Shown here: piece by piece, positions 44,984-50,007 of the stretch
Position numbering within the stretch: position 1 is the first letter of the stretch
Layout of the letters: every line of letters starts with the position of its first letter
DNA from: a virus
Virus record (IMG/VR): IMGVR_UViG_3300046536_000720
Coordinates: 1 to 50,520 of that record
Reading direction: 5' to 3' (one strand)
DNA: 50,520 nucleotides
Position numbers and translations under genes: made by a program
Notes under the pieces: model-generated
What the model saw: only the letters and a program-made list of their open reading frames with translations
Databases searched by the model: none
What the model was told of the DNA's origin: nothing

Positions 44984-45397
44984 TCAGTCGTCCTCGTCGT
45001 CGAGGGGGTGGACGATCTCGGCGAGGACTTCGCCGAGGAGTTCACCGCGGGCTTGGCCGGCCGGGGGGAGTTCGGCTACTCGGCGGCCGTCGGCGACGTC
45101 GGAGATTTGGGCGCGGAGCCGGCGGAGGTATTCGCGGGGGTCGTCGTCGCCGGGTTCGGGCTCGTACTGGAAGTTCTCCAGGCGGGTCCGGCGGTGCTTG
45201 CGGACTTCGGCGATGATCTCGGCGGGGGCAATGAACGGTTGGCGCTGGCCGAGGACGCGCGAGGCTTCCTTGCAGGCGGCGTATTCGTAGTCGCCGAGGA
45301 GGTCGTGCCAGGCGTCGGGGGTGTATTCGTCCATCTTCTGGTGGGGGCAGATCGCCCGGACGTAGCGGGCGAGCATGACGGCCTCTTTGTGGATCAT
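44984..45397 (-). CDS. Helicase loader-like replication protein
   Basis: A 137-residue protein. The N-terminus (EAVMLARYVRAICPHQKMDE, YTPDAWHDLLGDYEYAACKE) and the following PFIAPAEIIAEVRKHRRTRL are characteristic of actinophage proteins placed directly after the replication initiator and often proposed to load the host helicase. ATG 45397 overlaps the initiator stop (ATGA). Function is by family resemblance and position. Confidence 0.6.
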   Translation of the reverse strand: MIHKEAVMLARYVRAICPHQKMDEYTPDAWHDLLGDYEYAACKEASRVLGQRQPFIAPAEIIAEVRKHRRTRLENFQYEPEPGDDDPREYLRRLRAQISDVADGRRVAELPPAGQARGELLGEVLAEIVHPLDDEDD

Positions 45398-46362
45398 GCT
45401 TGGTTCTCCTGGCGGTCTCGCTCGTCGGCGCGGGCCATGGCTCGGGCGAACACCTCGTCGGTGTCGAGCTGCTGGCGGCTTTTGGGCTGGAGCGGGAGGA
45501 CGTTGGGGTCGACGGGGGTGGGGATTTGGCGCCAGCCGGGGTAGAGCCAGCGGCTGCTGAAGGGGCGGCGGCTGGCGCTGGCGACGGCGTCGACGGCGAA
45601 GCGGACCATGCGGGGGATGCCGAGGCGTTGGACGTCGTTGTGGAGCAGGAGTTGCTCGCTGCCGACGAACTTCCAGGGGAGGTCGATGCCGCTGGCGCTC
45701 ATCGCGGCCTGGAGTTGGACGAGCCAGTCGGGCCGGCTGTCGACCACGTCCGAGGCGGCCCGTACGGCGGGCAGGTTCTCGCCGAGGCCGGGTAGTGGTT
45801 GGTTCTCTGATGGTTCTGTTGGTGGTTCCTTTATGGTTCGGGCGGCGTTGAGTGCGTGACGGCCCGGCGTTGAGTGCGTGACGTCACGCTGTTCAAATGC
45901 GTGACGGCCGGACGCAGAGTGCGTGACAGGCCCTTCGGTCACGTCGTCTGAGTGCGTGACCGTCACGGGCGTTGAGTGCGTGACGGCCTTCGCGCGGGAC
46001 CGGCGCTTCCGCTCCGCCGCCGCCTCCCGAAGCTGCTCCTCCTCAGCCTCCAGCTCAGTCCAATCCGACTGCGGCCGGACCATCGCGAGCGCCAGCCGGT
46101 ACTCGGTGCAGCCCCGAACGACACCCTCGGCGGTGATCAGCTTCCCGTCTTCCAGCCGGCGCAGGGCCCGCTGGACGGTGCGCCGGTCGTAGCCGGTGCG
46201 GTACTGGAGCCGCAGGTTCGACGGTCGGGCGCCGCCGCCGTCTCGGTGGGCATGCTCGGCGAGCGCCTGAAGGACGTGCCGCGACGTGGTGTCGGGCTTG
46301 CCCTTCTCGGTGAGCAGCATGGGCGCGTCGTCCATAGCCCACTTCACTGCTTCGGTGCTCAA
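45394..46362 (-). CDS. Replication initiator with winged helix
   Basis: A 322-residue protein. The N-terminal 90 residues form a winged helix (TTSRHVLQALAEHAHRDGGG, DRRTVQRALRRLEDGKLITA). A basic linker is followed at 127-172 by repeated Val-Thr-His-Ser and Arg-His-Ala units, coded by the iterons at 45849-45984. The C-terminal domain (VQRLGIPRMVRFAVDAVASA, FSSRWLYPGW) would contact replication partners. Placing the origin inside the initiator gene is the arrangement of lambda O. Confidence 0.8.
   Translation of the reverse strand: MSTEAVKWAMDDAPMLLTEKGKPDTTSRHVLQALAEHAHRDGGGARPSNLRLQYRTGYDRRTVQRALRRLEDGKLITAEGVVRGCTEYRLALAMVRPQSDWTELEAEEEQLREAAAERKRRSRAKAVTHSTPVTVTHSDDVTEGPVTHSASGRHAFEQRDVTHSTPGRHALNAARTIKEPPTEPSENQPLPGLGENLPAVRAASDVVDSRPDWLVQLQAAMSASGIDLPWKFVGSEQLLLHNDVQRLGIPRMVRFAVDAVASASRRPFSSRWLYPGWRQIPTPVDPNVLPLQPKSRQQLDTDEVFARAMARADERDRQENQA
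45800..45839. repeat. Phased TGGTTC repeats, candidate unwinding element
   Basis: TGGTTC recurs at 45800, 45811, 45823 and 45834, spaced 11, 12 and 11 bases, in one of the least GC-rich stretches of the early operon. It directly adjoins the iterons, as expected of a DNA unwinding element. Confidence 0.6.
45849..45984. repeat. Iterons of the probable replication origin
   Basis: The core TGAGTGCGTGAC occurs exactly at 45849-45860, 45871-45882, 45949-45960 and 45973-45984, with degenerate copies at 45894-45905 and 45916-45927. Start-to-start spacings are 22, 23, 22, 33 and 24 bases. Inverted GTCACG cores lie at 45883, 45938 and 45962. The array is inside the initiator gene and beside the phased TGGTTC repeats. 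Confidence 0.8.
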
Positions 46363-46449
46363 CTGGCGTGCCTTCCGGTGGTGGTGGTTGGTCCCCGGGG
46401 CGGGGGGCTCGTGGCCGGCCCCGCCCCGGGGCCGTACAAGGGGTGGCGG

Positions 46450-47530: not shown

Positions 47531-48009
47531 GACGCACCGCCCGGGCTGGCGAGGAAGTCGCGCCGCCACTGGTAGCCGATCGTGGTCTTGCCGGTGGCCG
47601 GGTCGTCGGTGAGGGTGACGCGGCCCGCCATGGCCTCGATGTCGCTGGTGTAGACGGTCATCGAGAGGCGGGACAGCGGATTGGTGAGGAGGAACCCGAC
47701 GACCTGCTGCAGTCGGGCGTTCTCCTGCTCCAGGGCGACCGCGATCCGGCGCGCCCGCTCCAGCGCGGTGGCCTCCGGGTCGCCGAGGTACTGCGCCCAG
47801 ACGACGTGCTCGCCGTCCGCGTCGCGGCGGACCTCAGCGTCGAAGCTGCCCGCGGGCCGGTACGCCTCCAACCACCCGGTCTTGATCGCTCGGGCCGTGG
47901 ACATCGCGCTCCCGCGGGAGGGGTAGGAGCGGACCAGCTGCCAGTCCTCCGGGGCGCGGCGCAGGCTGGCGGCGATCGGATCGTGCCTGAAGTCCCCGGT
48001 CCGACTCAC
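47527..48009 (-). CDS. Hypothetical protein downstream of recT
   Basis: A 160-residue protein from GTG 48009, which overlaps the recT stop (GTGA); an internal ATG gives a 125-residue form. Residues 55-110 are mixed alpha-beta with a short coiled coil (LERARRIAVALEQENARLQQ). Because it is coupled to recT it may assist recombination. Confidence 0.65.
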   Translation of the reverse strand: MSRTGDFRHDPIAASLRRAPEDWQLVRSYPSRGSAMSTARAIKTGWLEAYRPAGSFDAEVRRDADGEHVVWAQYLGDPEATALERARRIAVALEQENARLQQVVGFLLTNPLSRLSMTVYTSDIEAMAGRVTLTDDPATGKTTIGYQWRRDFLASPGGAS

Positions 48010-48809
48010 TCGGCACCGTCCGACTGCCACTCGTCGTCGGGACCGGCCGCCAGCTCGCCGGGAATCCAGTCCGGGGTGTCGATGGCCTCCGGGGCAAGGT
48101 CCGTGCGAACCGTTCCGTCGTTGGCGAGCGCCCGCTGGGTGTCGGCGTTCTTCGGCAGCACCTTGTACAGCACCCGGATGCAGGTCTTCTCCGCCATCGA
48201 GCTGTAGTCCTGCACCCACGCCGGGGAGTCCGGCGAGGACGACCGGCGGCGGTGCTTCTCGACCTGCCAGGGGTAGAGCACCTTCCAGACCACGCCGCCG
48301 CTGACGGTCCGGGCGATGGCGTAGTAGGCGATCGGGTTGCCCGGGTTGGCCTGGGCCGACGGCTTGTGCCGGAGCTTCGGCTCCAGCCCTTCCTCGTGCT
48401 CGAAGTCGTCGCCCTCGTAGACCGTGGCGGTGGTGAGGCCGGAGGCGGCCGGGTGGCGCCAGAACAGGGTGACCATGCCCTGGTAGCCGAGCTGGAATTC
48501 GGCCTTGCCCTTGCGGGGGATCAGCCAGACCTCGCCGCCGGGGCCGGGCATCATGCCGAGCTGGGCGCACGTCATGACGGCGCCGAGAACGGACTCAGTG
48601 GTGCAGGTCATCAGCTTCGGCGTCTTGCGGAGCTGGGTGATGACCGCGCGGGCCATCTGGTCGGGGTCGATGTGGGCGGGCAGCACGCGGGCCATCTGCG
48701 GCCGCAGGATCTCGATCTGCTGGATCAGGCTGGGCGCCTGCTGCTGGGCGGGCTGGCCAGCGTTCTGGGCGCGCTGGGCGACCGCGTTGCGGGTGTCGGC
48801 GAGGGTCAC
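48006..48809 (-). CDS. recT: RecT-family single-strand annealing protein
   Basis: A 267-residue RecT-type annealase. Signatures are IEILRPQMARVLPAHIDPDQ, CTTESVLGAVMTCAQLGMMP, EVWLIPRKGKAEFQLGYQGM and the C-terminal KTCIRVLYKVLPKN. It pairs complementary DNA strands produced by the partner exonuclease coded just upstream, and so allows phage recombination and repair. The C-terminus is acidic. GTG 48809 overlaps the exonuclease stop. Confidence 0.9.
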   Translation of the reverse strand: MTLADTRNAVAQRAQNAGQPAQQQAPSLIQQIEILRPQMARVLPAHIDPDQMARAVITQLRKTPKLMTCTTESVLGAVMTCAQLGMMPGPGGEVWLIPRKGKAEFQLGYQGMVTLFWRHPAASGLTTATVYEGDDFEHEEGLEPKLRHKPSAQANPGNPIAYYAIARTVSGGVVWKVLYPWQVEKHRRRSSSPDSPAWVQDYSSMAEKTCIRVLYKVLPKNADTQRALANDGTVRTDLAPEAIDTPDWIPGELAAGPDDEWQSDGAE

Positions 48810-49789
48810 AGGTTCTCCAGGTGGACGCGCAGCTCGCGGGTGGGCTGGCCGCGGTACGGCTCGGGGTCGATGTCGGGGTCGGCGTCCAACGCGGCGGACT
48901 TCCAGCTGATCTGTCCGCGCTTGGGCTTCCACGAGTAGGCGTGCTGGCCCCGGATGTGGACTTCGGTGGCGTCGCCGGCGATGGCCTTCAGCCGGTTCTC
49001 GGCGGCCGTCAGCTCGGCCTCAACCGCCTTGGCCTGGGTCTTGGCTGCGGCTCGCTGGCGGAGCAGCTGCTCAACCTCGGTCGCATCAGCCACGACTGCG
49101 GGGGCGTCGCCGTCCGGGTGGAGGCGGTGCAGCAGGTCCCGGGTCGCCTCGGACCCGTCGACCGGCGGCGCGGTGCGGTTCTGGACCTGCTGCCAGAACT
49201 CGGCGCCGATCTGGACCAGGCCGGCGATCAGCTCGTCGTCCCGCTCGACGCGGTGGACGATGGTCCGCTGCCCGCCGATCAGGCACGCGACGTAGCCGAA
49301 GCGCCAGCCGGTGACGAGCAGCGAGTGCTGGACCTGGAGGTACGGTCCGGTCGGCGGCTCGTCCAGCCAGTCCTGGAGGGCGTACGAGGAGCGGGTCTTG
49401 AGCTCGACGACGCCGTACTCGCCGTGCTCCAGCGTCACCCCGTCCAGGTTGACGAGCGCCCACTCCGGGTCGAGCGCCTGGAGGGTGCCGGGCGTCGGGT
49501 AGAACGGCAGCTCGGTGATCGCCTGGAATCGCTCGGCGACGACCGGCTCCAGCAGGTGCCCCATCAGGGCGGCCTCGTCGAGGACCGGGTCCTCGCGGCG
49601 CGGCACCGGCTGGCCGGTCTTCGTGTACCAGATCTCCAGCGCCGACCGGTGCTTGTCCAGGCCGGCCACGGCGGCGATGTCCGAACCGCCCAGGCCCTGG
49701 AGGCGCGCGGCATGCCAGGCTTCGTCGTCGGGGCCCGCGCCCGGCGCCAGAACAACCTGGGCGCCGGACGGGTAGAGGTAGGACGTCAC
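48806..49789 (-). CDS. YqaJ/RecE-type exonuclease
   Basis: A 327-residue nuclease of the YqaJ family, partner of RecT. Visible motifs are WHAARLQGLGGSDIAAVAGL (W25, GGSD 34-37), MGHLLEP (E81), LVNLDG (D116), VVELKT (E129, K131) and LQVQHSLL (Q152, Q154), that is the lambda-exonuclease-like metal site. A coiled coil and a small domain follow at 250-327. GTG 49789 overlaps the previous stop. Confidence 0.9.
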   Translation of the reverse strand: MTSYLYPSGAQVVLAPGAGPDDEAWHAARLQGLGGSDIAAVAGLDKHRSALEIWYTKTGQPVPRREDPVLDEAALMGHLLEPVVAERFQAITELPFYPTPGTLQALDPEWALVNLDGVTLEHGEYGVVELKTRSSYALQDWLDEPPTGPYLQVQHSLLVTGWRFGYVACLIGGQRTIVHRVERDDELIAGLVQIGAEFWQQVQNRTAPPVDGSEATRDLLHRLHPDGDAPAVVADATEVEQLLRQRAAAKTQAKAVEAELTAAENRLKAIAGDATEVHIRGQHAYSWKPKRGQISWKSAALDADPDIDPEPYRGQPTRELRVHLENL

Positions 49790-50007
49790 AGCCAGCCCTC
49801 CGACGGAGTGCGCTCGACCAGCGGGCGCGTGGTGAGGTCGGTAGTCAGCGGGCACACGAGCCAGCCCGCACCGTCGCGACGGACCAACTCCAGCGCCGGG
49901 TAGGGCCACTCGATCCGCTCGAACCGCAGGACCGGCGCCCGCTTCGGGCCGACGACCGGCCGACGGCGCAACCTGGTCAGCAGCGGCATGGACAGGAATG
50001 GCGTCAT
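49786..50007 (-). CDS. Small basic hypothetical protein
   Basis: A 73-residue basic protein (LLTRLRRRPVVGPKRAPVLR, FERIEWPYPALELVRRDGAG). ATG 50007 overlaps the previous stop. It precedes the exonuclease and is coupled to it by GTGA. No family recognised. Confidence 0.65.
   Translation of the reverse strand: MTPFLSMPLLTRLRRRPVVGPKRAPVLRFERIEWPYPALELVRRDGAGWLVCPLTTDLTTRPLVERTPSEGWL

Follow-up and report, generated by a model that had tools for sequence, protein, structure and literature searches.

What is a cluster of short DNA repeats doing in the middle of a phage replication initiator gene, between the parts that encode its DNA-binding and C-terminal domains? The question arises from a 50,520-bp viral record in IMG/VR, possibly a fragment, the whole of which is referred to here as the window. 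A sequence-only reading of this DNA had proposed that iterons and an unwinding element, both inside the initiator gene, make up an origin, and the comparisons presented here support this as by far the best reading of the site. We hold it very probable that the repeats constitute a phage theta-type replication origin, working by the mechanism of binding, melting and helicase loading that we propose below. Judged by sequence comparison, the class to which this origin belongs is a common alternative to the lambda-O family, combining phage-specific iterons on a 22-bp ladder with a conserved, 11-bp-phased putative unwinding element; the GAACC part is a motif common to phages of many unrelated hosts, and not generic AT-rich DNA.

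The initiator gene and its internal repeats

The features on which the argument turns are listed below, in coordinates of the window or residues of the initiator.

45394..46362, minus strand: initiator gene, 322 aa, TTG start; PHROG replication initiation / O-like, HTH_36
Initiator residues 1-92: winged helix
Initiator residues 98-126: helical basic arm
Initiator residues about 127-211: disordered linker, encoded by the putative origin
Initiator residues 212-322: C-terminal helical domain
45962..45984, minus strand: iteron 1, 23-bp dyad GTCACGCACTCAACGCCCGTGAC
45938..45960, minus strand: iteron 2, 23-bp dyad GTCACGCACTCAGACGACGTGAC
45916..45927, minus strand: iteron 3, single half-site GTCACGCACTCT
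45883..45905, minus strand: iteron 4, 23-bp dyad GTCACGCATTTGAACAGCGTGAC, left half-site degenerate
45871..45882, minus strand: iteron 5, half-site GTCACGCACTCA
45849..45860, minus strand: iteron 6, half-site GTCACGCACTCA, starting 22 bp before the first AACC
45800..45839, minus strand: putative unwinding-element array, four GAACC repeats, spacing 11, 12, 11 bp
44984..45397, minus strand: next gene, 137 aa, its start overlapping the initiator stop by 4 bp (ATGA)

The HTH_36 match of the initiator is borderline in Pfam (E 1.9e-5; 24.8 bits against a cut-off of 25), and PHROG families 1032, 391, 678 and 270, of the 'O-like', HTH_36 type, match it across the winged helix with E-values from 8e-12 to 1.3e-6. 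AlphaFold models the winged helix with a pLDDT of 92-98 and gives values below 50 over most of residues 141-207 of the linker; fold searches with the initiator returned generic winged helices only. Its best relatives come from Streptomyces genomes, one Streptosporangium and viral contigs, and also from the Streptomyces phage TurkishDelight, and the phage of the window appears to be of Streptomyces type. At least four classes of C-terminal domain, with no matches between them, occur in this family; the classes come from a crude clustering by shared BLAST hits in which at least three types that differ by eye were merged.

Upstream of the initiator gene and in the same direction, RecT and YqaJ/RecE-type recombination genes (48006-49909) lie in the early region, and the gap just upstream of the gene holds a perfect 13-bp GC-only inverted repeat, CCCCGGGGCGGGG, with a 13-nt loop (46393-46431), a hairpin that is possibly a terminator or a regulatory element. 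On the other side, the product of the next gene (44984-45397) is a candidate helicase loader, with a weak N-terminal match to a PHROG helicase loader (E 0.026) and a weak N-terminal profile match to SPP1 G39P (1no1; E 0.14, residues 1-47 to 1-50); fold searches gave no usable match and no support for that role. Several of its relatives (L005, L007, L031) are longer and have a C-terminal, ribbon-like CPxC...C stretch that the window protein lacks.

Six coding-strand GTCACGCA iterons occur in the initiator gene, starting at gene nt 379, 403, 436, 458, 481 and 503 (window 45984 down to 45853) with spacings of 24, 33, 22, 23 and 22; the earlier reading had put six copies here at this spacing, and had both the coordinates and the copies right. 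Four match the coding-strand 12-mer GTCACGCACTCA perfectly, one has a single mismatch and one, at gene nt 458, is degenerate with three. Allowing one mismatch, the 12-mer occurs five times in the 50,520 bp, always within the initiator gene, compared with a mean of 0.39 in dinucleotide shuffles, none of 100 of which reached five, while four exact copies appeared in none of 20,000 synonymous-codon shuffles of the gene. A search at up to two mismatches found it nowhere else in the 50.5-kb record, possibly a fragment. The 'inverted GTCACG cores' described alongside the iterons are present, as CGTGAC at gene nt 396, 420 and 475, but each completes a 23-bp imperfect dyad, and they are therefore second half-sites and not separate elements; this dyad geometry had been missed, as had the conservation of the GAACC motif.

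The four TGGTTC repeats reported beyond the iterons, phased at 11-12 bases in an AT-richer stretch, were also borne out. Corresponding to GAACC on the coding strand, they lie at 45800-45805, 45811-45816, 45823-45828 and 45834-45839, with GAACC units at gene nt 524, 535, 547 and 558, and the stretch that contains them ranks second in the window among AT peaks over 30-40-mers (57-58%, against a mean of 29%). A chain of four arose in none of 100 synonymous shuffles, and the triple pattern AACCN{6,8} is found in the window at the array only (two overlapping matches, none expected). GC skew at the site showed no clean switch of sign.

Conservation in close and distant relatives

The closest comparison set comprised about 50 non-redundant relatives that share the N-terminus, containing 303 forward and 151 inverted half-sites. 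Dyad length was 23 bp in 145 of the 151 forward sites with an inverted partner, and the spacings between forward half-sites in the 50 relatives were 22 (95 cases), 24 (65), 23 (30), 33 (29) and 30 (16). In 47 of the 50, exactly 22 bp separate the start of the last forward half-site from the first AACC, from which it follows that the GAACC array is in helical register with the iterons.

Within one phage the iteron bases shift in concert, alongside changes in the DNA-binding domain. Three phages (L027, L042 and L068) have GTAAC in place of GTCAC in each of the 23 half-sites counted, 15 of them forward and 8 reverse, and all three carry V..H in the basic arm, a combination seen in 0 of the 47 others, which have K/Q..S/A; this may be a natural specificity switch, and we offer it as a lead. 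Half-site position 7 is best explained by residue 61, the top-scoring column (eta squared 0.40), being mostly C with Arg61 and moving toward G with Thr, Val or Ala (mean C 0.81 versus 0.52; Mann-Whitney p 1e-4). Residue 61 stands near the start of a helix (60-72) in the AlphaFold model, which from its position is predicted to be the recognition helix. The tree indicates that the residue-61 and arm changes go back to few independent events, and both associations are consequently leads and not proof. A strongly palindromic variant of the iterons, GTCACAGGCGCA with AAAGCCTGTGAC partners, occupies nt 379-540 of the initiator gene in L022, where the array is down to two AACC units.

At a greater distance, three or more AACC at 10-13 bp were present in 59 of 72 non-redundant initiators related to those of Streptomyces, Arthrobacter and Pseudomonas phages, compared with 5.8 under synonymous shuffling. 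We also scanned viral contigs blind to protein for three successive AACCRYCN{3,5} units, using N{8,10} spacing of that motif as the control; 70 of the 120 phased matches listed fell inside HTH_36-type initiator genes, against 2 of 120 control matches (Fisher p about 1e-24), the counts in both scans being samples among the matches listed and not totals. Among the matches listed, the coding strand carries all 70 of these arrays, each 77-292 nt 3' of the winged helix, and the other 50 of the 120 listed are outside any recognised O-like gene. Counted as ORFs, 67 of 101 matched an O-like PHROG profile, compared with at most 5 of 89 for those families in the control (again among the matches listed), and some array-bearing proteins match DnaD-like PHROGs. 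The control scan also returned large ORFs with several consecutive AACCRYC matches at 15-bp spacing (L317, L343, L370), which are probably in-frame protein repeats unrelated to origins.

Across 57 non-redundant genes the array has the consensus GAACCRTCA, in three to five copies every 10-12 bp (11 bp in 71 cases, 12 in 46 and 10 in 22) and in all three frames. Its units are G-poor and A/C-rich, and the G before AACC (72%) and the terminal A (86%) formed no part of the search pattern. Though iteron sequences differ, the linkers upstream of the arrays contain repeated 7-mers in 70 of 71 cases, and a lag of 22 in 57 of 71, against 8.6 by synonymous shuffling. A lag of 17 is seen in 19 of the 71 (4.2 expected), and a second iteron geometry may therefore exist. 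Named phages with the array include Arthrobacter phages Coral and RedFox, Pseudomonas phages JBD68 and MD8 and Bordetella phage PHB09; Psychrobacter phage Y8A has three GAACCTATCAAT-type units. Nested origins are already known (PMC7466680, PMC6316719); what looks new is that a phased GAACCRTCA array is conserved and keeps register with 22-bp iterons, the literature searched containing no description of a GAACC array in phage origins, although subscription journals were thinly covered and an earlier description is possible.

Readings other than an origin

The repeats might be conserved for the sake of the protein, as VTHS and EPS motifs with a function of their own to which the DNA pattern is secondary, and both motifs do recur in the proteins of many relatives. 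The iteron copies, however, use two reading frames in the window, and those of the relatives use all three (134/56/10), identical DNA being read as VTHS, RHAL or SRT depending on frame and, in L005, giving both VTHS and MSRT; since more than one frame is occupied, it is the DNA and not the protein that is conserved. None of the spacings 22, 23 and 11 is a multiple of three, and the segment is predicted to be disordered. The change from GTCAC to GTAAC in the three phages described above falls largely on Val codons that it leaves silent, as in frame 0, and in the other frame alters the protein from RHAL to SNAL or CNA. Because several frames are used and synonymous shuffles lose the pattern, we rejected this explanation, which we rate as extremely improbable, and the Val-Thr-His-Ser repeats are indeed, as had been suggested, a protein echo of DNA repeats. 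A role in the mRNA, for instance as a Rho-type or antitermination site, would suit the GAACC array, an unstructured A/C-rich strand with 11-nt periodicity that is G-poor and, in 70 of 70 arrays among the matches listed, on the coding strand. This bias may simply reflect an origin nested in a gene of set direction, and an element acting in RNA is at odds with the fixed register between array and double-stranded iterons (22 bp in 47 of 50), with the unremarkable RNA folding of the array region (z -1.38), and with the association of the motif with one winged-helix type and its absence from lambda and P22. We consider such a role very unlikely.

Winged-helix proteins often repress their own genes, and repeats within the gene of one such protein could be operators through which it controls its own expression, or a transcriptional roadblock, and no origin at all. 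Yet these are found about 380-560 nt into the coding sequence, in every case between the winged helix and the C-terminal domain, and the conserved array follows them in fixed register; the annotated origins of lambda and P22, moreover, occupy the same place in their initiator genes. We think regulation of this kind very unlikely. Sites for partition, incompatibility or packaging are also known to hold iteron-like arrays, but it is extremely improbable that the repeats serve any of these purposes, given that they fall between the two domains of the initiator in unrelated phages and covary with its own DNA-binding domain.

Proposed mechanism and comparison with known systems

If the site is a replication origin, we infer that binding, melting, strand capture, helicase loading and the start of replication all take place there, in the following way. 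The N-terminal winged helix would bind the GTCACGCACTC half-sites, in dimeric form where these make up 23-bp dyads, and because iterons recur every 22-24 bp, or two turns, the initiator would assemble on one face of the DNA. This complex would strain the adjoining GAACC array, which begins 22 bp on and is phased every 11 bp, and the array would melt; one of its strands would then be held, most likely by the initiator itself, and the replicative helicase would be brought in by the exchangeable C-terminal domain and, probably, by the product of the next gene (44984-45397). The protein segment encoded by the origin would be a disordered linker, taking whatever sequence the DNA requires.

The layout had been likened to lambda O, and this comparison holds for the layout only. 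At the lambda ori, initiator iterons lie inside gene O between the DNA-binding and C-terminal domains and are followed by an AT-rich unwinding region (PMC7466680); in P22 gene 18, as in lambda, iterons are placed within the initiator gene as they are in the window, and an AT-rich region comes next. The DNA-binding domain is different, being of HTH_36 type in the window, and lambda and P22 have no GAACC array: three units were found in 0 of 124 distinct sequences of lambda/P22-type O genes, and there is none in the annotated lambda AT-rich tract. The lambda and P22 N-termini had no phmmer match among 129 family members, and Pfam searches gave HTH_36 and other HTH domains only; in view of this lack of a homologous N-terminal domain, membership of the lambda O family (Phage_rep_O N-terminal domain) was rejected.

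A lambda O C-terminal domain is nevertheless found in L240 (E 1e-29), L094 and L228, initiators that combine it with an N-terminus of HTH_36 type and whose genes contain arrays; they provide evidence of domain exchange at the linker encoded by the putative origin. Since lambda and P22 lack the array, these three carry it with a lambda O C-terminus, and C-terminal classes vary, the array follows the winged-helix type and not the C-terminal domain or the host. Most simply, then, the initiator's own N-terminal part would read the array, as a single strand, by analogy with TrfA and RepE, each of which attaches to one strand of its unwinding element and depends on the full set of repeats there (PMC4081077).

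We lean, by a little, towards a wider proposition, that the HTH_36-type initiators of Actinomycetota and Pseudomonadota phages have a single origin grammar in common, consisting of phage-specific iterons on a 22-bp ladder and then a nearly universal 11-bp-phased GAACCRTCA array, read as melted single strand by the winged-helix initiator and not by the C-terminal domain or the host. If this is true, the shared grammar would be a dedicated and undescribed unwinding code, and many phage origins could be found from sequence alone. Most phage origins are unmapped, and the array would locate both origin and strand in this initiator class whatever the iterons, setting a recognition part that varies apart from a melting part that stays constant. 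The GTCAC to GTAAC switch, together with the association at residue 61, would provide a test of how initiator and origin specificity change together, both being written in the same DNA.

Other systems share parts of this arrangement. SPP1 oriL, in gene 38, has repeats and an unwinding element nested in the initiator gene, in a phage with its own loader and helicase genes (PMC6316719), and the window has an adjoining candidate loader gene; a second origin (oriR) was not found in the 50.5-kb record, possibly a fragment, and the link to the loader G39P is weak. The three-part initiator with a linker encoded by the putative origin resembles that of pSK41, whose Rep has an N-terminal ori-binding domain, an ori-encoded linker that is dispensable as protein and a host-specific C-terminal domain (PMC5703833), but pSK41-type RepA_N initiators belong to plasmids and not phages, have different repeats and carry a RepA_N domain, which is absent from the Pfam matches of the window initiator at E up to 1. 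The DnaD recognition element of B. subtilis, made up of TnnT repeats, likewise places copies of a motif that DnaD reads as single strand within an unwinding region (PMC10201434); its motif and spacing rule are different, and the double-strand binder at oriC is DnaA, not DnaD. The 13-mers of RK2 oriV and of E. coli oriC are also short unwinding-element repeats that adjoin initiator sites, whereas those of the window have 11-bp spacing and the motif GAACCRTCA, and lie inside a coding sequence, where they keep register with the iterons.
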